A stretch of 64,000 nt of DNA from Pyrinomonadaceae bacterium (GTDB lineage Bacteria > Acidobacteriota > Blastocatellia > Pyrinomonadales > Pyrinomonadaceae). Location of the stretch: assembly GCA_036277115.1 (NCBI GenBank), contig DASUNM010000023.1, positions 124,001 through 188,000 on the forward strand, in the 5' to 3' direction. Position numbers and translations under genes: made by a program. A model generated the notes under the pieces. It made no database searches and had not been told where the DNA came from. It was given only the letters and a program-made list of their open reading frames with translations. Each line of letters starts with the position of its first letter. Positions within the stretch are counted from its first letter, which is position 1. Below are positions 47,639-61,546 of the stretch, piece after piece.

Positions 47639-50600
47639 TTACGAAATCACCTCGCCCAGTGAATGCAACGCGGCGAACGGCTCTTGTTTCGGTGTCAGCA
47701 AAAGCCGCTGTAACGGATCCTGCACAGCACCATTCAGGAAGGCCGCCGTCCGTTGCTCGCGCGTTTGACCATCGATCGTGCCCGTGCTGTTAATCCTCTT
47801 GGCGATAGCGTACTGGACCTTTTTGGTTCTGAGATCCACGATCAAGGTAGCACCACCGCGAAAATCAAACTCCTCATTATCGACTTTTAGGCGGCGCGAC
47901 TGCGTCAGTGCCAAAATGATTTGCGGCTTGTGCTGGCCATCTGAGCCCATCCTCATCGCCCGTCGCATATCGCAAATCTCGAAAGGCAAATCAGGATCGA
48001 GACCAATTAGCTCACCAAACTGCTTCCGCAGGTTCGGTTTGAGATCCTTGAAAATGCTGGTGAGCATTTTTTTCAGCGATTCGAGGTACGTACAGGTTTC
48101 GTCGTACAACGCTTCGCGCGTGGGCGAGTAGAAGCAAATGTCCGCGTACCGCTTTAAATGCTCGAGAAACTTTCCTAGTTGCGCTTCCAACGCTTTCTCA
48201 GTTGCTTCGTCCTGCTTAAAGCCTTCAAACAGGTCGACGCCCTGCCAGCGCAGCGTCTCCACGGACAGCGTGTCCAAATCCAACGGATATATGCCGCGTT
48301 TGCGAAAACTTTCAACGAAAGCGACCCGATAATGATAAGGATCGTCCGGCACCAGATCGGCATCCGCGGTAATCAATCCGCGCAGATATTCGCCAAAAGT
48401 GATATCCACCGGCGGAATGTAATCGAGCGCGCGGATGCAGATATTCAACATGTGACCCGCTGTTTTCGACGCCTCAGCCGATAGCCGGTGTACGAGATCA
48501 GGATGGATGGCCCCCGCCTTAAGGACGCCGGTGCCGCCCGTGTAAATTCGCAACAGGTCCGCAGTACGAGTCTTGTAAATTGCCAGGAAGGCATCGAACA
48601 CTGCCGCTACCAAAAGCGCTCCACGCGCGTGGGGTTCTTTCGTCTTCTCGTAATCCGCCGGGTCTGGCTTAATCCTCGTCCAGGTTCCATCTTTACCAAA
48701 CTTTCCTATCGCGTCGCGCAAGGCGCCCCGTCCGCCGATGGCCCTGCCGAATTGCACCGCCAGGCTGCCAAGAATCGATTCCTCCTCCAGATTGCCTCTG
48801 GTTCGGGTAATCACATTCTCGAGGATCTCGGAGATGGTGAAATGCTGCATAAGTGCGACGATGTCGGCGAAGGCCTCGTGGAAGGCCAGCACATCCAGAT
48901 TTGTCGCTTCATTAAACTCCCGGTGCATGCCGTCGAGGATCGCATGGGTTGTTTCATGGGCAATGATGTCATGCGACAAGCATGAATAAACTCTGCTACC
49001 CGGGACATGATCGCCAGGATCGTCAGCCGACGCCTCGAAGTAACCGAAGAGTAGCGAAACCCCCGGCGGACTGTAGAAAGCATTAGCCCCGCGCAGCGCG
49101 TGCGGTTGTATTTCAAGCTGGCGCACAAATTTTGTCCGGTTGTCCGTTTGCCTTGCACGCCAGAGCACACGCCGGCCTAATGCCCGTTCAAAGTGCTCGA
49201 TGGTTTTCATCGCTACGGCGTAAACCATCTGCTGATGGAATTGCGGATTGCCTTCTGCCGGCGGCCAACCATCCTGCGCCAGGAGTTTTGGTTCATTCAG
49301 GTCGACAGGATCATACGTCGTGCCGGATGCATCCGTATCGACGACCTTGACGTATTCTCCAGTCAGTCCGGGAGTCTTCGGGTCTTCCGATGAGTCAATG
49401 AACTCTTTGCTGTTTAGTTCTTCCCACCTGACTTTGAGCACCACTTCGTTAATCCCGGCAGTCTCAAGCTGAGTCGAGAAGCTTGGATCGACTGCATAAC
49501 AACGCAATCGGCGGAACGTTGGGTTGACGAGCTTGACCCCTTTCTCGCTGACGGGCCGCGGCGGCGGCACGATTTCGACTGGAAAGCGTGGTGCTGGACC
49601 GCCAGGTGCTGAGCCGCCAACCACCGACGTATAGCGAGCGGCTAAATGCTTTCGCAGAGTGAGCGAAGCCTTCGGATTGGCGATGACGGCATCCATGAAT
49701 TCCTTGAGCGCCTTATCGCCTGGCGGCGTTGCCGGATCATCAATAATTTCTTGCAACCTAACGCCCTGGACGTCATCGTTCGCCAAATAGAGCTGAGTCA
49801 ACTCGAGGTTGAACATCTCTTCGCGCGGAGGCGCCTCGGAGATGCCCAATCCGGTCAACACACGCAAGAAGGCAAACGAATCCCTGTCAGGCGGCGTCTG
49901 CGGCCGATTGAGGTCCGGCTGTACATTGAGTGCAAAATGGGCTTGCAGGATGCCGTTGCCGAAGTGTTCCGGGTCAACGTTCTTATCTTTTGCCGAGCTG
50001 AACAAGGCATGACGAACCGCCTCCACGCGGCGCCAGTCGCGTGGCAGACGATCTTTGTACTTCTCGTACCAAATTGCCGCGGCGGCCGCGACCTGCGGAG
50101 TAGCCGAGGACGTGCCTTCGCCATTCTCGCGAATCTCAGGACTTTGCTTGAAGACCGGCCATGGAATATTGGGTGTGTACGCGGCGATCGCGGCCGTCAT
50201 TGAACTGGCCGGCCCCCAACTACCCTGAAGTTGGCGCCCCGTAATTCCATCGTAAGGTTTTCCGTTGGCCATCACGCCGCACACGGCGATGGTGCGGTGA
50301 TATCTTGCCGGATACACGACGTGACGCGATGGGAGCCCCATGACGTTGTTGCCCGCCGCCGCGCAAATGCAGATACCCACCTCGTAAGCTTTGTTGACCA
50401 GTTCGCCCCACGCCCTGGACGGCAGGCCGCCCATGCTCATCGTTACGACGTCGCAGCGATTATCGATCGCAAATTGCAAGGCCTGCGCCAACGCGCTGGT
50501 CCTGAACAGAATGACGGAATCCGCTATGCGAAGCGTGACTACGTCCGCCCCGGGCGCGCCGCCCAGAAAATCGCCGCCCAGGAAGTCGACACCCGCGCCG

Positions 50601-51250
50601 GCCAGAATTCCAATCGTGCCGGTGCCGTGATCGAGATTCTCCGGGAACAGGCCCAGCGCGGCCCGCGATTCTGCCTTATTCGGATCCGGATCGCCTTCGA
50701 CAAAGCTACGCTCGAGCACGATGCGAGCGGGTTTAGCAACGTGACTTCGGTCGAATCCCGTGTCGATGTGAGCGATGCGCGTGCGCGGATCGCGGAAGTC
50801 GACGGCGGAACGTGCCCATTGGAGTTGTGTGTACTCGGGCCCGAGGTGCCAGCCAAATGAAGGCGGCCCACCGAACGGTCCGGTAACCTTGTTATTCTTG
50901 TCGTCCTGCGGCGTGTGGCCGCCGGCAGCCGGAGCCGCCGCCATCGCCGCGCCGCCGGGAACCAATTCACTGCCGTCGTCGAATGTTTGGTCCAAGTCGG
51001 GTTCAGCGAAGAGTACCGCCGAAGCGTCGACACCAAGCTGCTCGGCGACCTGAGCATGCGCCAAATCCCATGGATTTGGGCCGACGGTGTCCGGCAAGTC
51101 GGCGAGATACCATTCGGGAGTATCGCTCAGGCCGAACACGTTCAACTGCCGCGGCCGATCATGAAGTGGCCTCAGATTGACTTTTGAAGCAGCTGCGGCG
51201 AGCCCGAAGTTTGGTTTGAGCTTTACCAGCACGCGATTTGAACTGGACAT
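47639..51250 (-). CDS. Fusion of S8 subtilisin-like protease and zinc gluzincin peptidase
   Basis: A 1203-residue protein with two protease domains. The subtilisin domain (about 130-440) has Asp163 in HIDTGFD, His208 in LDHGTGTIG, and Ser381 in GEGTSSATP. A second domain (about 640-900) has HETTH at 765-769 and a downstream HEAFADIVAL with Glu792, the pattern of gluzincins such as M4/M36 thermolysin relatives (HExxH then Glu about 23 residues later). The remaining C-terminal 300 residues are alpha-helical and unrecognised. There is no signal peptide or membrane helix. It is the last gene of the eight-gene cluster, 44 bases after the previous one. An all-in-one double protease is unusual. Confidence 0.88.
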   Translation of the reverse strand: MSSSNRVLVKLKPNFGLAAAASKVNLRPLHDRPRQLNVFGLSDTPEWYLADLPDTVGPNPWDLAHAQVAEQLGVDASAVLFAEPDLDQTFDDGSELVPGGAAMAAAPAAGGHTPQDDKNNKVTGPFGGPPSFGWHLGPEYTQLQWARSAVDFRDPRTRIAHIDTGFDRSHVAKPARIVLERSFVEGDPDPNKAESRAALGLFPENLDHGTGTIGILAGAGVDFLGGDFLGGAPGADVVTLRIADSVILFRTSALAQALQFAIDNRCDVVTMSMGGLPSRAWGELVNKAYEVGICICAAAGNNVMGLPSRHVVYPARYHRTIAVCGVMANGKPYDGITGRQLQGSWGPASSMTAAIAAYTPNIPWPVFKQSPEIRENGEGTSSATPQVAAAAAIWYEKYKDRLPRDWRRVEAVRHALFSSAKDKNVDPEHFGNGILQAHFALNVQPDLNRPQTPPDRDSFAFLRVLTGLGISEAPPREEMFNLELTQLYLANDDVQGVRLQEIIDDPATPPGDKALKEFMDAVIANPKASLTLRKHLAARYTSVVGGSAPGGPAPRFPVEIVPPPRPVSEKGVKLVNPTFRRLRCYAVDPSFSTQLETAGINEVVLKVRWEELNSKEFIDSSEDPKTPGLTGEYVKVVDTDASGTTYDPVDLNEPKLLAQDGWPPAEGNPQFHQQMVYAVAMKTIEHFERALGRRVLWRARQTDNRTKFVRQLEIQPHALRGANAFYSPPGVSLLFGYFEASADDPGDHVPGSRVYSCLSHDIIAHETTHAILDGMHREFNEATNLDVLAFHEAFADIVALMQHFTISEILENVITRTRGNLEEESILGSLAVQFGRAIGGRGALRDAIGKFGKDGTWTRIKPDPADYEKTKEPHARGALLVAAVFDAFLAIYKTRTADLLRIYTGGTGVLKAGAIHPDLVHRLSAEASKTAGHMLNICIRALDYIPPVDITFGEYLRGLITADADLVPDDPYHYRVAFVESFRKRGIYPLDLDTLSVETLRWQGVDLFEGFKQDEATEKALEAQLGKFLEHLKRYADICFYSPTREALYDETCTYLESLKKMLTSIFKDLKPNLRKQFGELIGLDPDLPFEICDMRRAMRMGSDGQHKPQIILALTQSRRLKVDNEEFDFRGGATLIVDLRTKKVQYAIAKRINSTGTIDGQTREQRTAAFLNGAVQDPLQRLLLTPKQEPFAALHSLGEVIS

Positions 51251-51294
51251 CGTCCCCTCCTCAGTAGAGCAACTTGGATCTGCTGGACGCGAGA

Positions 51295-52365
51295 CTAATG
51301 CACTTTGCGCTCGTGCACCCGCGTCGCCGTCGATGGATTATTCCGATCGGATCGCCAGGTCGGATGATTAAAATGGATCACAAAATCACCGTTGTAAGAA
51401 ATTACCGCGTCGTCAAAAGTAATCCTGCCAATCCGACGCCAGTTGTTGAAACTGAACTTTTGCGCCACGCCCGGTCCCCGACGCGAACCCTCGTCCGTCG
51501 TTTCAATGTTGAAGACTAATTTACGTCTGGGCGCCGGATCCCCTCGGTCAAAGATCTGCGCCATGATTTCATCACGAAAATCCAGGTCGCGATCTTCGAT
51601 TCTCGGCTGCTCAGGGGAAACCGTGAGTCGCATAAAGTTTGGACATCGCGTTTGCTCGCTGTCGGACTTATCCAGCTCGGCCAGTTGGTACAGTTGCCGT
51701 TGCGCCGGCTCGCGGTCAACGATCTGAAACACGAGCCCGGTAATAATCAGAATTGGTGTTCCCCAACCGCGCCGCCAGGCATGCACGTCAGGCGCGCTGC
51801 GCAATTCAGCATCATTTATGTAGTCGGTGTTTTCCCCCGCGATGTCCTGCTGCGTAAAAAAACTCGCGGTCCGCAGCGGTTGTTGATGTTCGGGGTCAGT
51901 AGTCGGAAACAATTTTCCCACCATTGCCAACGAACGAGTGTGTCCGCGCCGCGTTTCAGTGCAACAGGTTGAATAGCGCGCGATCAGGAGGCCGCGACTG
52001 TCTTTGCGAAAGTAACCTGAGTATTCGGTCGCCTCAGTTATCTCCCAAAGTCCCGTAAGGCAAACGCCGTTCGGATGCAATAGGCGACGAAAGCCCTTGC
52101 CATTCTCGCCCCAGCGCAAGTCCGCATGCGAATCAACCGTGCGCTCAATGGCTTTGCGGAAAACATATGACTTTCCGAAAGGGAGCACGCCTCGCAGGAC
52201 ACTCGCGAGGGTGACTTTATAGGTGGGCAAGGGCGGCGCCGCGGAGCTGCCCCAAACTTTTTGATATGGATTCTTGAAGACGGCCTCTCGTACTTCGGCA
52301 AAGCGCGATCCGTTGTAACTACGGTCCGCCTCGGTAATTTCGATCCCGGAATAGTCTGTCTTCAT
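51295..52365 (-). CDS. Uncharacterised protein, possibly catalase-fold
   Basis: A 356-residue protein without signal peptide or membrane segment. A central stretch (about 105-195: HPNGVCLTGLWEITE, RGLLIARYS, RSLAMVGKLFPTTDP, ASFFTQQDIAG) and a C-terminal region (RRIGRITFDDAVISYNGDFV, FNHPTWRSDRN) have the order seen in some distant heme catalase-superfamily proteins. I could not find the heme-ligand tyrosine motif, so this is a weak fold guess. It sits between the HabA-like protein and the double protease, 36 and 44 bases from each, so it belongs to the cluster. Confidence 0.55.
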   Translation of the reverse strand: MKTDYSGIEITEADRSYNGSRFAEVREAVFKNPYQKVWGSSAAPPLPTYKVTLASVLRGVLPFGKSYVFRKAIERTVDSHADLRWGENGKGFRRLLHPNGVCLTGLWEITEATEYSGYFRKDSRGLLIARYSTCCTETRRGHTRSLAMVGKLFPTTDPEHQQPLRTASFFTQQDIAGENTDYINDAELRSAPDVHAWRRGWGTPILIITGLVFQIVDREPAQRQLYQLAELDKSDSEQTRCPNFMRLTVSPEQPRIEDRDLDFRDEIMAQIFDRGDPAPRRKLVFNIETTDEGSRRGPGVAQKFSFNNWRRIGRITFDDAVISYNGDFVIHFNHPTWRSDRNNPSTATRVHERKVH

Positions 52366-52401
52366 GAGGCCTCAATAGGGTTGGTTTCGATGCCTGGTCG
52401 T

Positions 52402-52827
52402 CTAGGTCGCCTTCGCGCGGCGCAGTCCCCAAAGCACGAGGACGCAGAAACTCACCATCGCGACTGACGATAAAACCAGGCCGCCGGTAACAATATTTTC
52501 TTTCCAGGCGGCAGCCAGCCGGCCCGAACCCGCCAAAGGCGTCAGCCGGTTCGTGCTGAAAGCCGCGGCCAAAAAACTCGTACAAAGATTCAAATATGAG
52601 CTGAACACCGCGAGCCTAGCGGCCGCCGTGCTCCACTTTCCCGGCAAGTTTTGCAGCGGCCAAATGGCGCCGATGGCCATCAAGAACAGGCCGCCGAGAA
52701 GCCCGACCAAATGTGCGCTCAATCCCATGCGCATGTTGGCGAGCCACGGCATGATCATCCCGGTCACCAACGCCAGGATAAAAAGCAAGACTCCGGCGCT
52801 CACTAGAAACCGGCGTTGATCCTCCAT
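52402..52827 (-). CDS. HabA-like four-helix membrane protein
   Basis: A 141-residue membrane protein with four hydrophobic helices (about 9-29, 37-58, 70-92 and 113-135). The segment ANMRMGLSAHLVGLLGGLFL, then AIGAIWPL, and a final LVLWGLRRA follow the pattern of the hydroxylaminobenzene mutase (HabA) family. HabA rearranges hydroxylaminobenzene to aminophenol in nitrobenzene-using bacteria, but most family members have unknown roles. It starts two bases after the stop of the patatin gene, so it is likely translated together with it. Confidence 0.7.
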   Translation of the reverse strand: MEDQRRFLVSAGVLLFILALVTGMIMPWLANMRMGLSAHLVGLLGGLFLMAIGAIWPLQNLPGKWSTAAARLAVFSSYLNLCTSFLAAAFSTNRLTPLAGSGRLAAAWKENIVTGGLVLSSVAMVSFCVLVLWGLRRAKAT

Positions 52828-52829
52828 AT

Positions 52830-53681
52830 TCAGCCTATTCGATTAGCCTCGCACCAGGCGCGGGCGGCGCTCACGCCTTCTTCCACTGCCTCGGGAAAGC
52901 GCCGCGGCTTGAAGTTGAAGAGATAGTGTAAGCCGACCTCCGCCTTCAATTCGTAGACTTTGATCGGTCGTCCAAACTCACCTGGTAATCCACGTTCGAT
53001 CGCCGCGTTGTTCGCGTCAATCCGCGTCAGTACCCGCCGGTAACTGTAATTCGCCGTGGCTTCAAAAATTCCAAAGAAGTTACCGAGAAAGCCTTTGCCC
53101 CACTTGCCGCGCTCACTCGTGTTCCAGATTATCCAGACCTCATCAGCACCGCGACGAATGGCTTCTTCAAGATTAGTAGCCGTGTTAAGGACCGCATCGA
53201 TGTACGTATCACCTTCGATCTTCACCGGCGGAAAGAACATCGGCAACGACGCGGTTGCGATCAGAAAGTCTTCTGTGAGCTCCGGGGTCGTGACGGGACG
53301 CAGCTGGTGTTTCGAGAAGTTGTAGACATTAAATGTGCCATCGCGCGGACTGGCGCGAATCTTGTTTAGATCAATTCCCCACCTGGGAAAGATCTTTTTT
53401 CGGAAGGCGTCCAACTCGAAAAACGATTCGGCGAAGAAGAGTAGCGGCAACTGCGACCAGTTGACGTTAACCGCGGTGAAGGGTTTGAAGTTACGCCAAT
53501 TGTCGGCGATCTGTGTGCCACTCATCCCCTGCACCCACATCGCCAGGTTGAAACACGCCGCACTCACGCCGTCACCGTGATCGAATTCGATGCCCGCTTC
53601 GTCGAGCCACACTTGAAGCACACCTGCCTGAAACGGGATCTTGAGTCCGGCTCCGGCGAGCATCAGCGATCGCTTTGGCAT
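52830..53681 (-). CDS. Patatin-like phospholipase homologue
   Basis: A 283-residue protein of the patatin family, which hydrolyses acyl chains from lipids with a Ser-Asp dyad. The start MPKRSLMLAGAGLKIPFQAGVL carries the oxyanion-hole glycines, with the usual GGGxKG degenerate (GAGLKI). The nucleophile elbow reads GDGVSAACFNL, the serine being in GVSAA instead of GxSxG. The Asp is in YIDAVLNTATN where DGG is usual. The residues are present but the motifs are relaxed, so the specificity may differ. No signal peptide. It lies 18 bases after the GMC gene and two before the HabA-like gene. Confidence 0.78.
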   Translation of the reverse strand: MPKRSLMLAGAGLKIPFQAGVLQVWLDEAGIEFDHGDGVSAACFNLAMWVQGMSGTQIADNWRNFKPFTAVNVNWSQLPLLFFAESFFELDAFRKKIFPRWGIDLNKIRASPRDGTFNVYNFSKHQLRPVTTPELTEDFLIATASLPMFFPPVKIEGDTYIDAVLNTATNLEEAIRRGADEVWIIWNTSERGKWGKGFLGNFFGIFEATANYSYRRVLTRIDANNAAIERGLPGEFGRPIKVYELKAEVGLHYLFNFKPRRFPEAVEEGVSAARAWCEANRIG

Positions 53682-53699
53682 TTCCCCTCGATTCGGATC

Positions 53700-55583
53700 T
53701 CATTCCCCATCGTCGAGAATGGCGTTGGCCGCCTTTTCCGCAATCATGTAGATGGGCATCACTACAAAGAATCCCGGGATGCGAGGAAATACCGAGGCAT
53801 CCACGACGCGCAGTCCTTTGACTCCACGCACGCGAAACTTTGAATCAAGAACTGCATCCGGATCGTCGTCGGCGCCGATCTTGCACGTGCACGATGCGTG
53901 ATGGCCCCAGGAGCGATCCTGTACGAACTTGTCGATTCCTTCCTGCGAGCTCAGATCCACTCCCTTCATACACTCGGGATCGACGGGCAATCGGTTCTTG
54001 GTTCCTTTCAAAAGGCTCTTGACGATGGCGACGCCCTCACGCATCGCCTGCAGATCCTTCTCAGAGTCGGGCGTTAGTTTGCCGCTTTCGTCGCGCTCAA
54101 AGTAATTGAAATTAACGTGAGGCGGATCGAGTGGATCGCTGGAGTTAAGGGTCACTTTGCCGCGAAAGCGCGCGTGTCCTTTCAGCAACAGCCATGTCCA
54201 TTTGTTGTGCGGCGGTGTGGTGGATTCCTTGGCCCAGCCGGTGTAATAGCCGACAAAAGCTCCGGGCACGCCGAAGATAAATAAATCGGGTTCGTTGTTC
54301 TCAGCGACGCTGGACTTAGCCAGAAATCCGACTACCGCGCCGTTCGTGGCGTACAAGCCGGTGTATTTGTCCTTCCATTGGGTGAAGAACTCGTCTCCCT
54401 CCTCACCTTCGGCCGGCCCGGCAAACGTCGCCTTAGCAAGCAAGCTAAAGGGTTCCTTTGATTCCGCCACGATCCCCACTTCGTATCGATCCTGCAGGTT
54501 CTTGCCGACGCCGGGGAGATCGACACGCACCGGAATGTTTATCTCTGGCCGCTCCAACTCTTCGCGCGGACCGATGCCGGAGAGCATCAACAACTGCGGC
54601 GTAATGTATGCCCCGGCAGCCAGGATGACTTCATGTTTCGCGCGCACTTCCTGTGGGGGACCGTTTGGTTTTCCAAATCGTTCCGGGTTGCGGTCGGCGC
54701 GATAGAGTCCTTCGCCCTGGAGGTACCGCACGCCGACTACCTGCTTATCATCGGCGTCATCAAAGATGAGCTCCGTCACGTGACAGTTCGTCCGCACTTC
54801 CAGGTTGCCGGTTTTTGCGGCGGTCTTGATTCGTTCGCGCGTGCCCGCGCGACGGCCCTGGCTGTCGATGGCCATCGGCACCAGGATCACGCCTTCGCCG
54901 TGGCGCAAGCGCAGATCGTTCGGATCGACTCGCGCTCGCCAGCGCACGCTGAGCGGAAACCACGGCCGGTTCCAAAACCGAAACGGAAGAAGTTTTCGGT
55001 GTGACCAGAACGAGTGCTTGACGATCTCACCAATCGACGGGTCATGATGCATGATGGCCGCGCGGGCCAACGAGATGGTGTCGGCGTTACGTGTCGGCAA
55101 CCAACCTTCCTTGCCATGGCCGGAAGAGCTTGCGCAACGATGACGCCAGCTCTCAACCTGCGCGAAATACTGGTCCATTTTCCGCGGCGCCCAACTGTTG
55201 TCGCCGGTGGCATCGACGATGGTCTGCCAATCACTATCGTGTGGGCGAATAATGATCATCGCGTAGTGCGCAGTGCAGCCACCCACGGTGCGCGCGCGCG
55301 GGTAATAGACGCCGTTTCGCCCGGCCTTCAGCTCCACCTGGTATTTCGGATCCTGTTTCTGCCGCTCTTCTTCTTCGTAGTGCCGCACGTAATGATCCAA
55401 ACGCATGTCGGGATCTTCGGTGGCATTGCCGTGAAAGACGGGCACTTGATAGTTGTACGGCTGGTGATCGCCGCCGGCTTCGAGTAACAGGACTGACTTC
55501 CCTTTTTCGGCCAGGCGCGCCGCCAGCGGACCGCCACCGGCGCCTGATCCAACCACGATGTAATCAAACTGTGGTGCACTCAT
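53700..55583 (-). CDS. GMC-family FAD oxidoreductase
   Basis: A 627-residue flavoenzyme of the glucose-methanol-choline family. The FAD-binding GSGAGGGPLAARLAEKG is at residues 12-28, with a second GMC motif in GRNGVYYPRARTVGGCTAHY. The C-terminal part (SWGHHASCTCKIGADDDPDAVLD...LRVVDASVFP) carries the histidine region usual for the base. Substrates of the family include alcohols, sugars and sterols. No signal peptide is seen, so the enzyme is cytoplasmic or uses another route. It lies between the cytochrome and patatin genes (31- and 18-base gaps). Electron transfer to the adjacent cytochrome is possible. Confidence 0.92.
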   Translation of the reverse strand: MSAPQFDYIVVGSGAGGGPLAARLAEKGKSVLLLEAGGDHQPYNYQVPVFHGNATEDPDMRLDHYVRHYEEEERQKQDPKYQVELKAGRNGVYYPRARTVGGCTAHYAMIIIRPHDSDWQTIVDATGDNSWAPRKMDQYFAQVESWRHRCASSSGHGKEGWLPTRNADTISLARAAIMHHDPSIGEIVKHSFWSHRKLLPFRFWNRPWFPLSVRWRARVDPNDLRLRHGEGVILVPMAIDSQGRRAGTRERIKTAAKTGNLEVRTNCHVTELIFDDADDKQVVGVRYLQGEGLYRADRNPERFGKPNGPPQEVRAKHEVILAAGAYITPQLLMLSGIGPREELERPEINIPVRVDLPGVGKNLQDRYEVGIVAESKEPFSLLAKATFAGPAEGEEGDEFFTQWKDKYTGLYATNGAVVGFLAKSSVAENNEPDLFIFGVPGAFVGYYTGWAKESTTPPHNKWTWLLLKGHARFRGKVTLNSSDPLDPPHVNFNYFERDESGKLTPDSEKDLQAMREGVAIVKSLLKGTKNRLPVDPECMKGVDLSSQEGIDKFVQDRSWGHHASCTCKIGADDDPDAVLDSKFRVRGVKGLRVVDASVFPRIPGFFVVMPIYMIAEKAANAILDDGE

Positions 55584-55614
55584 TTTATTTTTCTCTTAAT
55601 CTGCGACAGGCGTC

Positions 55615-58188
55615 CTAAAAGGTTTTGAGAAATTCGATGAGATCGCGTTTGTCCTGCTCGCTCAAACGTGAGTCGTCGCCGAATTGGCCGGTGCCGAAGT
55701 AGTGTCCACGATTCACTACGTAGTCGGGACACTTACTCAACGCGATCAAACTGTTAGCGAGGGGCTCGAAGACGCGTTTTGCCTCTTCATCAGTTGCGTT
55801 CGGCGGCAACTCTTTGAGTTTCTGTTTGATTTCTTTAACCAGCCCGAGCAACTTCCAGTCATATTGAGCTCGCCCCCAAAAACCCAGACCCTCAGGACGA
55901 AGATCCAAACTCGCCAGCAGTCCCACCGGCGTATCAGGTGGAATTGGACCAAGTTGGATACCACCGTCTTCGGAGAAAAGGCTCGGGAAAAACAAGTCGC
56001 CAAAACCCTCGACGAGGTTCGGCACGTATCCCGGCGCCACCGTAATGAAACAGCGTTGCGTGGTGCGATCGATGAGGCCGGCCTTGACGCCCCGCGCCGC
56101 CAGCACCGGATCTGTCGCGCGCTCTTTTATCAACAACATCTGCTCGATTGAATCGTCGAACGACTTCATCCGATCATCGACGGATCCGCTCCAATAAAAA
56201 GTGCCGACGGCGTTGTTGAGCAGGAACGGCGCGGTGGACCAGAGACTGACGAGCGACGCCGGTCGTGTGTAACCACGACCACCACCCGGCATTTGGTATG
56301 CGCGCTCCTCACCCGTGATCGGATGAATCACTTTGATCGGCCCGACCGGGGGCAGATCTTTGTACGTGTCGGAAGAGAAGTTGTCCCAGATGTTGTCGCG
56401 AATCGCATTCGTGCCCAGCGGGCTGCATGCATTGGTTTGCAGTAGGGTGACCGGAACACGATGCTCCGCTGAAAGGTAATTGTTGTCGAGGAAGTCGGGC
56501 GCCATGACGATCGCCAGCATCTTCGTCTTGAACTCATCCGTCTTTGACCACGCCCAGTACTCTTCCCAACACTGCAAATAGTTCGGTCCCGCACAACCCT
56601 GCGTTTCCATGATCTTTTTGGGACTGTCTGGCGCCGGCAGTTTGCTTGAATGACAACGGGCGCAGTTTTCCGCAAAGACCTTCTTGCCGTTTTCGACCCT
56701 CTTCACGTACGCCGGTTCAGTCGGCTTGCCCTTATTGAAATACTGCGCACCACCCGGAGCCGCGCTTAGCTTGTGTGGCAATGCAGCCTTGAGGAAGAAG
56801 CGCGCCATGTTGACCGTTTGCGCTTCAGTTGCTTCCCAGTAGCTGGAGTTCTTGCGCGCAACTGCGATTTCAATCGGCGTAACAGTCTTGCCGCCGACGA
56901 GTGCGTTGAAGTGGAGCAACCATTCTTCACTGAAGAGACCGATGTTTAGATAGACCCGATTCAGCGCGCCGAGGGCGCCCACCGAGTCGGAACCATCTTT
57001 CAAAACACGCGGCGAGTAAACCGTGTTCGGCGGCGTAAAAAACTTCGTCAATGGATCGCCCGCCGGCACGTAATCGTTCAACTGCTTATTGTTGTCGCTG
57101 CCCGGACCAAGGGTCTCTTTTCCAAAGCGAGTTGCCTGATCAATCCGTGGCCCAAGGTTGTAGATCGCATTCATCGTCCGCGGGTTGTTGATGTTGTCAG
57201 TCGAGACCAACGACGTGTCGAGTGAGCCTGGCCGCGAAGTATGGAACATTTGATAGATGTAAGTTGACGGGTCTGACTTCCAGTCAAAGATGCGATCGAT
57301 CCAGAAGTACTGCGCGCCGACGCTGTTATTCAGGTTTTCCCACTTGGGACGTTCGGGATCTGCCGGCGGCTTGGTGGGATCGGGACCGACGTGACAAAAG
57401 GCGCACGACATGCCGACGCGATACGGGCGAACAATATCTTTTGAGTAGTAGTACGTCGGATCGCTGTAGTAACGCTCCGGATCCCATTTCTCCGCCGCGG
57501 CGGCGTCAAAGGCCGGGTTCGGAAACAAACGTAGCCCGACGATTCCGGTCGCATAACCGTAGAAAGAACCTACCGGCATCTTTCGGTCTTTTGGCAGATA
57601 CTGATTCTCCCGGCCCGCCGGCAGAGGCTTACCACGCGAACCAACTACAACGCCCGGATACTTCGCTTCATTTTCAAACGGATCGGGAGGACACTCAGGC
57701 GATACGATTCGTTTGTCGAGCCAGAGTCCGAACCGTTCCGGATCGGGGCCCGTCGCTTTCTCGAAGCACGGCTCGTTGACGAGTCCAAGGTAGTACCAGC
57801 GATTGTCGCGGCTAAACTTCAGTTTGTCATTCGGATCTTTGGAGATTGGATTCGGATACGAGGCAAGCGTTTTCAGCAGATCTAAAGCGCCGAAACTCCG
57901 CGCGCTTATCGTGTCCCAAAAACGATCGTTGCCGCCGGTCCAGACAACCCAAGTGTTGCGACCTTTTACTTCATCGGGCGTGAGCGGAATCGCGCCATCC
58001 ATGTCGCGGAAGTAGTCTTCATCAGCGGCCGGAAAAGAACTGGCCGCCCGGTTTGCCTGTCGGGCTTCATCGAGGACCGTTCCGGGTTTGGGTCCTTTGT
58101 GAGAAACAAGCCGGTACACGATGAACCCGACCGGGATCAACAGCACGGCTATGATGATGCCCAGAATTTTGACTTTTCTTCCTGGCAT
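55615..58188 (-). CDS. Large membrane-anchored dihaem cytochrome c, RoxA-like
   Basis: An 857-residue protein with a single N-terminal hydrophobic anchor (about 8-27) and two c-type haem sites, CAFCH (262-266) and CARCH (509-513). The haem spacing of about 245 residues and the phrases NTWVVWTGGNDRFWD, NLGPRIDQATRFGKE, NIWDNFSSDTYKDLPPVG and TRPASLVSLWSTAPFLLNN match the style of RoxA/RoxB rubber oxygenases and related dihaem proteins. RoxA itself is about 680 residues, so this is larger. It should act outside the cytoplasmic membrane. Oxygenase activity on isoprenoids or lipids is inference. The cluster context is a GMC enzyme and a patatin. Confidence 0.75.
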   Translation of the reverse strand: MPGRKVKILGIIIAVLLIPVGFIVYRLVSHKGPKPGTVLDEARQANRAASSFPAADEDYFRDMDGAIPLTPDEVKGRNTWVVWTGGNDRFWDTISARSFGALDLLKTLASYPNPISKDPNDKLKFSRDNRWYYLGLVNEPCFEKATGPDPERFGLWLDKRIVSPECPPDPFENEAKYPGVVVGSRGKPLPAGRENQYLPKDRKMPVGSFYGYATGIVGLRLFPNPAFDAAAAEKWDPERYYSDPTYYYSKDIVRPYRVGMSCAFCHVGPDPTKPPADPERPKWENLNNSVGAQYFWIDRIFDWKSDPSTYIYQMFHTSRPGSLDTSLVSTDNINNPRTMNAIYNLGPRIDQATRFGKETLGPGSDNNKQLNDYVPAGDPLTKFFTPPNTVYSPRVLKDGSDSVGALGALNRVYLNIGLFSEEWLLHFNALVGGKTVTPIEIAVARKNSSYWEATEAQTVNMARFFLKAALPHKLSAAPGGAQYFNKGKPTEPAYVKRVENGKKVFAENCARCHSSKLPAPDSPKKIMETQGCAGPNYLQCWEEYWAWSKTDEFKTKMLAIVMAPDFLDNNYLSAEHRVPVTLLQTNACSPLGTNAIRDNIWDNFSSDTYKDLPPVGPIKVIHPITGEERAYQMPGGGRGYTRPASLVSLWSTAPFLLNNAVGTFYWSGSVDDRMKSFDDSIEQMLLIKERATDPVLAARGVKAGLIDRTTQRCFITVAPGYVPNLVEGFGDLFFPSLFSEDGGIQLGPIPPDTPVGLLASLDLRPEGLGFWGRAQYDWKLLGLVKEIKQKLKELPPNATDEEAKRVFEPLANSLIALSKCPDYVVNRGHYFGTGQFGDDSRLSEQDKRDLIEFLKTF

Positions 58189-58240
58189 GGATTTTCGCTC
58201 CTTTTATAGATATGTCGAAACTGGCAGCATCGTTTCGAGA

Positions 58241-59422
58241 TTACCGGTGCACATGGAAGTTATTGAGATTAGGGTTGAGTTCGGCGGCCATCTGCAGGTA
58301 GCGGGCGCCCTTACCATTTGGACTGGCGGCCTGGTAGATCTTTCCGGCCGTTTTGAACAGTCGCGCGTCTTTTGCGCCTGAGGCGAGCGCCTCATCCATC
58401 AATTCTTTCGCTTCTGAAAACTGTCCCGCGCGATACAAAGCCCACGCAAGCGCCGCCAACGTTGAGAAGTTTCTGCGGAGGTCGAGATCCTTCCGCGCCC
58501 ACTTAACCGCCTCCGGGCCGTCTTCGTCTACGTCTGCATAAAAGTCTGCGAGGTGGTGATAGTAGTGGACCTCGCCTAGGGCCGCCGACTCCAGAAAACC
58601 AGTCCGCGCTCTGTCTAACCACTTGGTAGCCTCAGGACTATTTCCCATCGAGATGTAGAGTTCGCCGAGTGCCTGTTGAAAATCCGGACGTGGCACTCGC
58701 TCAACCACGCTCCGATAAAATGCTTCCGCCTCCTCGTACTTTCCCTGCGCGCCTAATAGCTCCGCCATGTGTTCGTCAACCAGCCAATGGCCCGAGTACG
58801 CGCGTTCAGAGCGTTCATAATGCCGGCGCGCTTTGTCGTAGTCGCCCTGGCTCAGATCGACCACGCCCCTTTGCAGCTCGAGCCAAGAGTAATGTCGCAT
58901 CTCTTTTGCGGTCAGCTCGTCGGCGGCTTCGTCATACAGACGATCGGCTTTTTCGAGATCGCCCATCTTGAAGTGGAGATGAGCGAGACGCGCGAGCGCG
59001 TCCCAGGTGCGTTCTTCCGCAATCAGTGCTTCGTATTCTTCTTGCGCGGCCTGGTAACGACCTTTCTGAAAATCGAAGTCCGCTTTCAAGGCCCGGCCGG
59101 GAGTGCTCAGCAATAGATCGCGACCGAGCTGGAGATCCTGTTCGACGTCGTTGAGGCGGTGAAGTTTGAAGTGAATATTCGCCTTGAGGAAATAAAAGTC
59201 GCCACTTGGACCAAGATGGCGGATCGCGTGATCGAGGGTGGCGTCGGCGTCGTTAAGCGCGTCCAGGTCGCCGGTGAGCGACGCGCGTTGATATTGCAGG
59301 TACGCCAGCCGCGATACTTTCGCGCTGTCGACCGGGAGGGCCAATGCGTTGCCGTTGATCTCGGCAAGTCCCTGATGGATTCGCTCGAGTTCGTTTTCGA
59401 AGTCAGTTCTTTTGGTAATCAT
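58241..59422 (-). CDS. Tetratricopeptide-repeat protein
   Basis: A 393-residue protein of TPR-like helical repeats, about ten units over the full length (for example GDLEKADRLYDEAADELTA, GKYEEAEAFYRSVVERVP, GQFSEAKELMDEALASG). It has no signal peptide or membrane helix. Such proteins act as scaffolds. It is the second gene in the cluster, 53 bases after the DUF4331 gene and 52 before the cytochrome gene. Partner identity is unknown. Confidence 0.85.
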   Translation of the reverse strand: MITKRTDFENELERIHQGLAEINGNALALPVDSAKVSRLAYLQYQRASLTGDLDALNDADATLDHAIRHLGPSGDFYFLKANIHFKLHRLNDVEQDLQLGRDLLLSTPGRALKADFDFQKGRYQAAQEEYEALIAEERTWDALARLAHLHFKMGDLEKADRLYDEAADELTAKEMRHYSWLELQRGVVDLSQGDYDKARRHYERSERAYSGHWLVDEHMAELLGAQGKYEEAEAFYRSVVERVPRPDFQQALGELYISMGNSPEATKWLDRARTGFLESAALGEVHYYHHLADFYADVDEDGPEAVKWARKDLDLRRNFSTLAALAWALYRAGQFSEAKELMDEALASGAKDARLFKTAGKIYQAASPNGKGARYLQMAAELNPNLNNFHVHR

Positions 59423-59475
59423 CGGATCTCTGCGAACGCGCGACGGCGGAGTGAAGCCGCGAACCAGTCAGCGGA

Positions 59476-61044
59476 TTACCAGGGCTCTGCTAAATAGGGA
59501 AAGTCGCTGAGAAACTCTTTGTCGTTCTTCATCGGATTCGGCACCGTCTTCGGCTCGATCGGCGCGCTGTTCCACAACGCGGGATCGTTGAGCAACTCGA
59601 TGTGATACTTCTTCCCGTTCAATTCGGCTTCCATATCAAGAAACATCGAGAGAAAACGAGTCGCAACCTGATCTTCCAGCCGGCGTCCATAAGGCCAGGT
59701 GCCCGTGGTATCCATATCGATCGCGCAAACATTGGGCACGAAGATTTCCACGGGTCGGCGGAAGGGAATGTTCAGCCCTTTGGGATTCCAACTGTCGTCG
59801 GGCATGTTCAGGCTCTGAAACAGAGTTTTCTTCGCGCGCGGAAATGCCAGCGTCGCGAGGGAGTACGTTTTATGGACCGACACCGGTGAGTTGTCGTGAT
59901 CGAAAGACGTCTGTAATCCCAGCGCGCTAATCGATGGTCCAAATCCCCAACCGAGATGGGCCAGCCGCTTGACGAAAGCCGGCCCGAGCCAGAAGTTGTT
60001 GGCTCCGAGTTGACGATTATCTTCCCGCTCGCTCAGCGCAGCGTCGGCAAAGGGCTGTCCGTCAGTATCGACCAGCTTGTACTTCTTCAACTCATCGTCG
60101 AGTTTGAGTTGACCGATGAGCGATATGGGATTCTCGAGCCAGAACGGATGATCGGGAATCGTCTCGATCTTGTCTGCAGCTTTTAACACCCAACTTTCGC
60201 CCCACGTGTTAACGATCCGGTTGTGATCGGGCGCACTCGTGATGAAGGCAAGCGGGATTTCGAGAATGATCGCATTGATGTTGATGCCTGCCTGGCAGTC
60301 TCGGCCACTGTAGACGAAGCGGAAGTTGCCGTTGGCATCTTTGAAAAACTTGTCGCCGTTCCAGGTGTGTGGGCCGGGCGGAAGTTCGCGTTTGTTATCG
60401 CCGTAGCCCCACTCGGGATCGTTTGGATCAAAGTTGAATAGATGATTGCCTTCGAGTTCGATCAGCGTCTTGGGAATCTTCAGTTCGCGCGAGCCGGCCA
60501 TCGTGTGAGGGACGCGATAGAACTGGGGTGCGTAATTGATCGAGCGGAAGAAGCCGGTCAGATCGTTGAAGAAAGCATCGTCGCGGCCGCCGATGTACGC
60601 TTTAATCGCGTGACCGTTCGGCGTGTCGATAGTCGTAACCTTGTTGGTATCGATTACCGTCGAGAAACTGGCGCCGGGAAAGTCTATGAATTTGATTGAG
60701 GCGCGTTGACTCTGATCAACTGTGACGCGAATCTCGGAAGCCTTTGACGGTCCCAGAAATTTCTCTTTGATAGCGTCGAAATATTTAAGCAACCCTTTCA
60801 ATGTGTGTTCATCTGAACCTGGACCAACCACTCTCGGATCCGGGGACACCAGGATTCGATAAAGCATGTCGGTGTCGAAAACACCGGCCGCCGGTATCGA
60901 GGCAAAGGTGAGCGCGATGACTACTTTTTCGCCGCCGTCGGTATCCGCGCTGGGAAAGCCGAACAAGTCATAGAGGTCAGCAGCGCTGATGTCGATATCA
61001 GAGAAGATCGAATTGACTGCGTTTGGATCGTTGTGGTCAGCCAT
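59476..61044 (-). CDS. DUF4331-family protein
   Basis: A 522-residue protein whose N-terminus has ISAADLYDLFGFPSADTDGG, and whose body has paired beta-rich segments including GNHLFNFDPNDPEWGYGDN and a C-terminal ALWNSAPIEPKTVPNPM. This matches the DUF4331 pattern (DHxDP...DLYxF), a widely spread bacterial family of unknown role. Unlike most members it shows no signal peptide. It is the first gene of the eight-gene cluster and so lies nearest the promoter, in the region upstream of 61044. Confidence 0.78.
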   Translation of the reverse strand: MADHNDPNAVNSIFSDIDISAADLYDLFGFPSADTDGGEKVVIALTFASIPAAGVFDTDMLYRILVSPDPRVVGPGSDEHTLKGLLKYFDAIKEKFLGPSKASEIRVTVDQSQRASIKFIDFPGASFSTVIDTNKVTTIDTPNGHAIKAYIGGRDDAFFNDLTGFFRSINYAPQFYRVPHTMAGSRELKIPKTLIELEGNHLFNFDPNDPEWGYGDNKRELPPGPHTWNGDKFFKDANGNFRFVYSGRDCQAGININAIILEIPLAFITSAPDHNRIVNTWGESWVLKAADKIETIPDHPFWLENPISLIGQLKLDDELKKYKLVDTDGQPFADAALSEREDNRQLGANNFWLGPAFVKRLAHLGWGFGPSISALGLQTSFDHDNSPVSVHKTYSLATLAFPRAKKTLFQSLNMPDDSWNPKGLNIPFRRPVEIFVPNVCAIDMDTTGTWPYGRRLEDQVATRFLSMFLDMEAELNGKKYHIELLNDPALWNSAPIEPKTVPNPMKNDKEFLSDFPYLAEPW

Positions 61045-61469
61045 GAGGGTGGCCCATCCTTCCGAGTATTAGAACGTGTCAGGCTAGTTGTAAGGGAAGC
61101 GGACTTTAGCGATCTCGGGATGAATCTACAGCGAGGAAGCTAAGCTAAAAAGCATTGATCGTTATGCCCGATTCCAAATCGCGGCGGAGTCTATCACGAG
61201 CGTTATAGGGCGTCAATAAAATGGTAAGCGGTGGTAGTAGTCAGTTTTGCGAGAAAAATTTTCGAGTGACAAAACCCAAGAACCAAAATTTTTCCGGGCA
61301 GTTCGTCGAATTCCGGTCTTCCCGTTCGTCGTTATACTGAAGGCTCGGCAACTAGCCTGGCTGAAAATCCGCGCGAACAGGAACTGCTGACGGAAAAGTC
61401 GAAGCAGAGTAAGAAGGCGCAATAGAAAAGCGGCCAAAGTGCGCTGGCCGCCGTAAAGTAACGGAGCGT
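61045..61469. other. Gene-free region upstream of the eight-gene cluster
   Basis: A 425-base region between the DUF4331 gene and tRNA-Met. It contains an AT-rich stretch (about 61240-61310; GAAAAATTTTCGAG, CCAAAATTTTTCCGG) that could hold promoter elements for the cluster on the minus strand. It also contains the tRNA terminator (61426-61451). A short open frame at about 61335-61425 has no recognised homology. No other gene is supported. Confidence 0.55.
61426..61451 (-). terminator. Terminator of tRNA-Met
   Basis: Read on the minus strand, this is GCGGCCA, an eight-base loop and TGGCCGC, followed by TTTTCTATTG. It lies 18 bases beyond the tRNA 3' end. Confidence 0.75.
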
Positions 61470-61546
61470 TGGTAGCGGGGGGCGGGATCGAACCGCCGAC
61501 CTTGGGGTTATGAATCCCACGCTCTAACCATCTGAGCTACCCCGCC
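61470..61546 (-). tRNA. tRNA-Met (anticodon CAU), CCA encoded
   Basis: A 77-base cloverleaf read on the minus strand. The acceptor GGCGGGG pairs with CCCCGCT, the D-arm is GCTCAGATGGTTAGAGC, the anticodon loop is ATTCATAAC, the T-arm is GGCGGTTCGATCCCGCC, and the 3' end is ACCA. First pair G-U, so it is the elongator type and not initiator (which has a mismatch). Ile2 with a lysidine-modified CAU anticodon cannot be fully excluded by eye. Confidence 0.93.

Follow-up and report, generated by a model that had tools for sequence, protein, structure and literature searches.

The described systems closest to the gene cluster analysed here are the RoxA/RoxB rubber oxygenases, MauG and the dihaem peroxidases, choline dehydrogenase and other GMC oxidoreductases, and the DUF4331-TPR gene pair. 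RoxA/RoxB cleave polyisoprene and bear Phe317 at the O2 site. RoxA has a MauG motif of the form PYxHNGSVP, with a histidine, and H641 as a haem ligand (PMC6311187); the available part of a second source holds nothing on the MauG-motif histidine (PMC6797691). In the present study, a cluster of eight genes was analysed in a 64,000-nucleotide stretch of a Pyrinomonadaceae genome (contig DASUNM010000023.1, positions 124,001 to 188,000), referred to below as the window. The cluster includes a dihaem cytochrome c (P0003, here CYT) and a GMC oxidoreductase (P0004). A first-pass annotation, made from the letters and their open reading frames (ORFs), had not recognised this mix of genes as a described system, and no description of a set of DUF4331, GMC, dihaem cytochrome and patatin genes was found in the open-licence literature by title or abstract. 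The parts of the cluster are of known kinds; the clade of cytochromes that lack the motif histidine, together with its usual GMC partner, is a new variation on these kinds. The cluster itself does not yet amount to an established pathway.

The cytochrome clade and its GMC partner

At the position of the MauG-motif histidine, the window CYT and its clade carry Leu or Gln and no His. In a quick tree of 59 rows, which drew a long-branch warning and was made without bootstrap, all 47 His-less rows grouped together (SH-aLRT 100), with a single change of state at the base of that group. Haem 1 was kept in every full-length CYT row of the alignment, and the cytochrome c domain of CYT scored 30.4 bits in Pfam against a cut-off of 21.3. 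In the Pfam and NCBIfam scans of the window proteins, which were reported down to E 0.1, P0003 matched neither the RoxA-like domain PF21419 nor the dihaem peroxidase family PF03150, and its score of 39.3 bits for the di-heme-cytochrome C peroxidase family NF040606 was below the curated cut-off of 150. Among the relatives, two neighbouring cytochromes in locus L033 exceeded the PF21419 cut-off, and a His-bearing paralogue in L045 scored 19.2 against 26.7. RoxA was not matched when the single CYT sequence was compared with the PDB, and a profile of 32 cytochromes gave 48 short cytochrome c matches there, the RoxA structure 4b2n not among them. Since the MauG-motif His is absent, CYT is not a RoxA by published features. 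SACCP of methanotrophs was considered as a candidate for the closest relative of CYT.

The AF2 model of CYT (pLDDT 77.5, pTM 0.82) was aligned by VIA-align with MauG at Z 7.7, 7.6 and 7.4 (3sxt, Z 7.7 over 268 residues) and with RoxA 4b2n at Z 7.5 over 368 residues, all of them below the Z of 8 under which the tool flags a match as possibly just a common arrangement; the rows that followed dropped to Z 3.2. Foldseek with the same model returned nothing at E 0.001 or better. With hhalign, STAPFLLNN of CYT was matched to TAPYMHDGS, the motif of the peroxidases, with E 0.0034 and a low probability of 9.6%, compared with E 0.42 and 0.43 for the GMC and catalase control profiles, and a RoxA-like profile made from 13 neighbouring cytochromes was aligned over 38 columns round the second haem at a probability of 94.8%. 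Because the two haem motifs and the motif-region alignment agree, the fold class of CYT is likely that of MauG and RoxA despite the Z values below 8. The first-pass name of a RoxA-like cytochrome therefore holds for the fold shared in VIA-align and is not supported as to RoxA membership, for which the motif histidine, PF21419 and 4b2n were all absent. That MauG occupies the top structural row, tied with RoxA, would also suit a maturase of the MauG type, with residues of a partner protein as its target of oxidation, in which case the cluster would assemble a protein-derived cofactor, and on Mesorhizobium plasmid pOM4 (L032) the annotation places a LodA/GoxA CTQ-dependent oxidase some 7 kb away from CYT. 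We regard a maturase as highly improbable: the motif histidine is absent from the main clade, the GMC looks cytosolic and is thus an unlikely periplasmic target, and a LodA gene accompanies CYT in just one annotated record out of three (L032; no search was made elsewhere), as does a tyrosinase gene in another (L034).

The second element of the main finding is the pairing of CYT with a GMC protein. Relatives without the histidine numbered 50, of which the 44 with at least 2 kb of sequence downstream were judged. A GMC of this kind was present within 6 kb in 39/44 and came immediately downstream, in the same orientation, in 31/44, compared with 5/12 and 3/12, respectively, for His-bearing relatives, and two of those five share their locus with a His-less cytochrome. 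Ten genomes with a His-less CYT contained one to five PF05199 matches each, so that by arithmetic the chance of such proximity is of the order of 1%; moreover, the loci were retrieved via the cytochrome, which makes the neighbouring genes an independent result. The pair was found in Acidobacteriota, Alphaproteobacteria and Gammaproteobacteria, and this recurring, testable unit thus spans Acidobacteriota, methanotrophs and rhizobia. One of its hosts is the laboratory strain Rhizobium johnstonii 3841, which carries it on plasmid pRL11.

P0004 scored 108.2 bits for GMC_oxred_C (PF05199, cut-off 24.6) and 82.7 bits for GMC_oxred_N (PF00732, cut-off 23). In an alignment of the window GMC with 39 CYT partners, W559, G560, H561, H562, A563, I602, P603, G604 and F606 were invariant in all 40 rows. 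The window GMC starts eight residues ahead of its FAD motif, and among the 37 partners scored (L033 and L034 were left out) 36 had an ATG, GTG or TTG at most 35 residues from that motif, mostly at 7-15. The GMC of L045 has no start codon near the FAD motif, that of L072 could also start farther upstream, where a hydrophobic stretch is encoded, and in L048 a hydrophobic stretch precedes the sole start codon. Judged from these N-termini, the GMC partners would mostly lack an export signal, with one or two cases open (L045, L072). Only CYT, among the eight window proteins, shows a hydrophobic segment at its N-terminus with a long soluble part behind it; the first-pass statement that the cytochrome alone is clearly exported stands, and for DUF4331 and TPR it is made sharper by comparison with their relatives in L070 and L080. 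In five loci (L054:12515-15616, L056, L064, L065 and L066) the GMC partner is about 1030 amino acids long, with some 400 extra C-terminal residues; this extra part had no Pfam match in L054.

Composition and assembly of the cluster

The eight ORFs were present on the minus strand at the coordinates of Table 1, each with an ATG start, and the gaps between them were 53, 52, 31, 18, 2, 36 and 44 bases, as the first-pass annotation had described (one strand, gaps of 2-53 bases). Its DUF4331, TPR, cytochrome c, GMC, patatin and S8 calls were likewise confirmed by Pfam. The scores were 48.3 bits for P0001 (PF14224, cut-off 27), 69.8 bits for P0005 (PF01734, cut-off 27.7) and 88.6 bits for P0008 (PF00082, cut-off 21.8). 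The Ser-Asp dyad of P0005, assigned by motif, is Ser40 and Asp162, with an elbow of GVSAA and not GxSxG. The subtilase triad of P0008 is D163, H208 and S381, and its C-terminal half, called a gluzincin in the first pass, has the HETTH (765-769) and HEAF (791) motif alone, with no Pfam match to a metalloprotease or any other family; a relative in L036 is 66% identical. Promoter-like and terminator-like sites in the region were no more frequent than in shuffled sequence. An anti-phage defence system was also considered and had no real support from PADLOC, which gave weak TPR and subtilase matches alone (E about 1e-4).

Table 1. Positions of the cluster genes, their motifs and the flanking elements in the window
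Feature	Position	Strand	Basis or remark
P0008, S8 subtilase with HETTH...HEAF C-terminal half, 1203 amino acids	47639..51250	-	
P0007 (CATL), conserved protein, 356 amino acids	51295..52365	-	alignment with 7 relatives
P0006 (MEM), small membrane protein, 141 amino acids, three hydrophobic stretches	52402..52827	-	
P0005, short patatin, 283 amino acids	52830..53681	-	Pfam; GAGLK, Ser40 (GVSAA), Asp162 (YIDA)
P0004, GMC oxidoreductase, 627 amino acids, no signal peptide	53700..55583	-	Pfam
GMC IPGFF, residues 602-606	53766..53780	-	I, P, G and last F in 40/40 rows
GMC WGHHA motif, residues 559-563	53895..53909	-	40/40 rows
P0003 (CYT), membrane-anchored dihaem cytochrome c, 857 amino acids	55615..58188	-	two CxxCH
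CYT His829 (within NRGHYFG), possible distal ligand for haem 2	55702..55704	-	conserved at least 90% in alignment A2
CYT altered MauG motif APFLLNNAVG, residues 653-662	56203..56232	-	Leu at His position
CYT haem site 2, CARCH, residues 509-513	56650..56664	-	coordinates by arithmetic
CYT haem site 1, CAFCH, residues 262-266	57391..57405	-	coordinates by arithmetic
P0002, TPR protein, 393 amino acids, no hydrophobic N-terminus	58241..59422	-	Pfam TPR
P0001, DUF4331 protein, 522 amino acids, no signal peptide	59476..61044	-	Pfam PF14224
Promoter-like site upstream of first gene	61188..61216	-	weak, count equals chance
Terminator-like hairpin between tRNA gene and cluster	61429..61452	-	weak, count equals chance
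tRNA-Met gene, upstream cluster edge	61470..61546	-	

Two of the first-pass identifications found no support. P0006 had been called HabA-like; it matched no Pfam or NCBIfam family, and HabA itself was not compared. P0007 had been given a possible catalase fold, for which no support came from Pfam or NCBIfam (no match), from Pfam with eight members of the family (none), from the family profile against the PDB (none), from hhalign with profiles of 20 catalases, of 2 small catalases and of the two sets joined (E 0.15-0.45) or from an AF2 model made from two sequences (pLDDT 27.7). With the joint catalase set, the best local alignment fell on the expected distal-His region at E 0.21. P0007 shares 55-72% identity with seven relatives and has an invariant His97 in an LHPxG-like setting. 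Its relatives lie near CYT-GMC in L032, L045, L076, L077 and L109. Among the 60 relatives compared it occurs in one, its own genome, and a hidden Markov model found it in 5 of 396 phylum genomes, with no more distant relatives; in plasmid records, at a loose E-value, the matches beyond pOM4 were at chance level. In genome G281, where CYT was not found, a P0007 relative (L118:1495-3816) adjoins an epoxide hydrolase gene that is read divergently from it (EHN, 127 bits), which is no more than a hint at epoxide or lipid chemistry. The relative at L045:1924-3159 has a possible lipoprotein-like N-terminus, so members of this family may differ in compartment.

CYT has one copy in its own genome and was present in 18/396 genomes of the phylum, 9/162 of the class and 2/7 of the genus (own included). 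The genome collection supplied 33 named CYT loci, and 21 rhizobial plasmids hold a relative. The CYT tree intermixes Acidobacteriota and Proteobacteria, and this together with the patchy distribution points to horizontal spread. The full eight-gene order was in no locus fetched, so the order proposed by the first-pass annotation is conserved in sub-blocks, as in L109 and L036, and not as a whole. Locus L109, of the same family, has DUF4331-TPR-CYT-GMC-P0007 with no patatin or MEM between GMC and P0007; P0007 follows about 60 bases past GMC and is cut short by the contig end, and the CYT frame of this draft contig is split in three overlapping or abutting ORFs (L109:2855-5384), by assembly error or decay. 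The order is CYT-DUF4331-TPR-GMC-S8 in L036/L107 (same genus) and DUF4331-TPR-CYT, then contig end, in L035 (same family); GMC-DUF4331-TPR follows CYT in L070 and L080, and a P0007-DUF4331-CYT-GMC set occurs in L032 and L077. In another genus of the family, only the last 53 TPR residues were matched before CYT (L105:9259-9417), a rearranged version, and the GMC was just 42% identical. The window patatin and P0006 had no phmmer relative in the loci searched and thus look like private additions. The window cluster is a composite round a CYT-GMC core.

Such variation would fit a loose assemblage of genes beside a tRNA gene, in a region prone to change, where CYT-GMC would be the only functional unit: members come and go among relatives, the flanking genes vary within the genus, and DUF4331-TPR is an independent pair. 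We consider this unlikely, given the single strand and the short gaps, the recurrence of DUF4331, TPR, CYT, GMC, P0007 and S8 in varied subsets and orders in L036, L070, L080 and L109, and the set shared by L032 and L077. As parts of the gene set recur in other genomes, their clustering is not due to chance. Upstream of the cluster, a protein with a MerR-type helix-turn-helix and TPR (window:61631-62434) has close relatives in 6/7 genus genomes (own included, one partial), at 73-83% identity in the five others. Of the four loci fetched for it, one (L131, from genome G004) has a tRNA-Met gene next, and in L130, L132 and L133 none was found. Downstream of this gene, no product of a window ORF was found in L130, L131 or L133, save weak matches of 31-33% in L133; since L132 ends just past the gene and the others are unmatched, no clean empty-site junction was drawn. 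About 4-7 kb past the window end, genes for a Vgb-like propeller, SCO1/SenC and a multicopper oxidase lie consecutively (L085:3687-7313).

The DUF4331-TPR genes are a separate, widespread pair. PF14224 was present in 31/60 relatives, and 22 of the 29 PF14224 loci judged had a TPR gene in the same orientation at most 300 nt away. P0001 begins at the mature end, MADHNDPN, and the DUF4331 proteins of L109, L035 and L036 likewise start at ADHNDPN, without an export signal; their TPR partners, inspected by eye, have no hydrophobic N-terminus. In the more distant clusters L070 and L080, DUF4331 has a signal-like N-terminus that ends just before ADHNDPN, the TPR protein carries one as well, and four ordinary DUF4331 proteins have a signal-like N-terminus too (all by eye). 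The absence of N-terminal signals from both proteins suggests that the pair apparently moved to the cytoplasm in the window lineage.

Besides patatins, the companions counted in 51 CYT neighbourhoods were DyP-like proteins (12; the Pfam matches are weak and for L068 absent), DUF4331 (9), extra RoxA-like cytochromes (7), P0007 relatives (5), S8 proteases (3) and PQQ dehydrogenases (3); these are lower bounds, because some loci are cut by contig ends. In L055:12694-17267, a weakly DyP-like protein or a relative of it adjoins a 430-amino-acid family without a Pfam match near CYT, and this architecture recurs in L038, L042, L048, L053, L063, L068, L072 and L074, in some with a 150-amino-acid protein. 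On pOM4 (L032:4318-24859), genes for a LodA/GoxA CTQ oxidase, HupE/UreJ, DUF4198 and DUF4331 share a stretch of about 20 kb with CYT and GMC-patatin, and in L070 a HupE/UreJ_2 gene follows TPR.

A possible oxidative role and its alternatives

Patatin-like proteins of several kinds occurred in 16 of the 51 neighbourhoods, that of L061 detected by phmmer alone and that of L034 scoring below the Pfam cut-off. On pOM4, GMC and patatin are fused in one protein of 1562 amino acids, the patatin part of which scores 26.6 bits, just below the cut-off of 27.7, and on pRL11 of R. johnstonii 3841 CYT, GMC and patatin are consecutive by the annotation of the record. Of the joint function imagined in the first pass, the CYT-GMC pairing and the patatin, which recurs and is once fused to the GMC, are thus supported; the RoxA and catalase parts found no support.

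Tentatively, and as a possibility to be taken seriously, we read the cluster as a composite operon at whose base lies a CYT-GMC(-patatin) module, spread horizontally, that may oxidise a lipid-like substrate, with CYT outside the inner membrane and the GMC and hydrolase inside. The lipid theme derives from the recurrence of patatins and the GMC-patatin fusion, and the oxygen theme from the fold of CYT. CYT, its anchor in the inner membrane and its haems on the outer side, would use O2 or a peroxide to attack a compound of acyl or isoprenoid type; the patatin would free or trim acyl esters; and the cytosolic GMC would oxidise the resulting alcohol or aldehyde, with FAD relaying the electrons either to O2 or to the quinone pool. 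DUF4331-TPR, P0007 and the S8 protease would be accessory modules, recruited separately, and it is a guess that the first may serve in binding or as a scaffold and the last in turnover. The substrate and the order of steps are what we infer. The wider claim that the His-less clade forms a functionally new dihaem cytochrome class, normally with its own GMC subfamily (WGHHA...IPGxF), and together with patatins a new oxidative lipid pathway common to soil Acidobacteriota, methanotrophs and rhizobia, is speculative and, taken as a whole, somewhat unlikely.

Several observations weigh against the lipid-oxidising reading, in addition to the low Z values, the empty Foldseek search and the low hhalign probability given above. 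For five of the 44 His-less cytochromes no GMC lies within 6 kb, and the CYT rows are phylogenetically non-independent (L048/L063 and L072/L074 are close kin). Patatin was not found in 35/51 neighbourhoods, some of them cut by contig ends, nor between GMC and P0007 in L109; ten of those 35 have a DyP-like protein, and the window patatin is unrelated by phmmer to the other neighbourhood patatins. Furthermore, CYT and GMC apparently occupy different compartments, which makes direct electron transfer unlikely.

An alternative is a respiratory dehydrogenase route without lipids: the GMC would oxidise a small choline-like alcohol at the inner face and feed quinones, CYT would be a periplasmic electron-transfer or peroxide-reducing partner, and the patatin a frequent passenger. 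The best matches of P0004 are indeed choline dehydrogenases, in NCBIfam (NF002550, 251.6 bits, under the cut-off of 605) and in the PDB (9lq0, E 1.2e-38); the loss of the MauG-motif His could mark lost oxygenase or peroxidase chemistry, and a PQQ dehydrogenase relative lies near three of the 51 clusters. However, fatty acid photodecarboxylase comes next in the PDB list (E 5.1e-37), so that the choline label is unspecific, haem 1 is kept in every full-length row, and the recurrence of patatins and the GMC-patatin fusion speak against a mere passenger. On balance we judge the respiratory route unlikely and retain lipid oxidation as the tentative reading.

Relation to known systems

With RoxA/RoxB (4b2n), CYT shares two c-type haems and a similar fold, and the conserved His829, a possible distal ligand for haem 2, could match RoxA H641; it differs in having no motif His and no PF21419 match and in being paired with a GMC. 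With MauG and the dihaem peroxidases (3sxt, PF03150), it shares the fold at Z 7.4-7.7, values within the range flagged above, and, at low probability, a TAPYxHxGS-type motif region, whereas it is more than twice the length of MauG, lacks the motif His and has no PF03150 match. The clade would add a branch to the RoxA/MauG/peroxidase superfamily that is marked by a single motif change, and for specialists in haem enzymes a motif lost once, with a steady partner, is worth testing.

P0004 resembles choline dehydrogenase and the other GMC oxidoreductases in its two GMC domains, both above the Pfam cut-offs, but stays far under the NF002550 cut-off. Ordinary GMC enzymes bear an active-site Asn or His in the region of F606-V608, where the P0004 subfamily has IPG(F/Y/M/L)F. 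The window DUF4331-TPR genes are adjacent, as in 22/29 judged loci of the known pair; they differ in that, here and in L109, L035 and L036, they have no export signals and in that the pair sits in an oxidoreductase operon, which points to how the pair may have come to be recruited and shifted to the cytoplasm.

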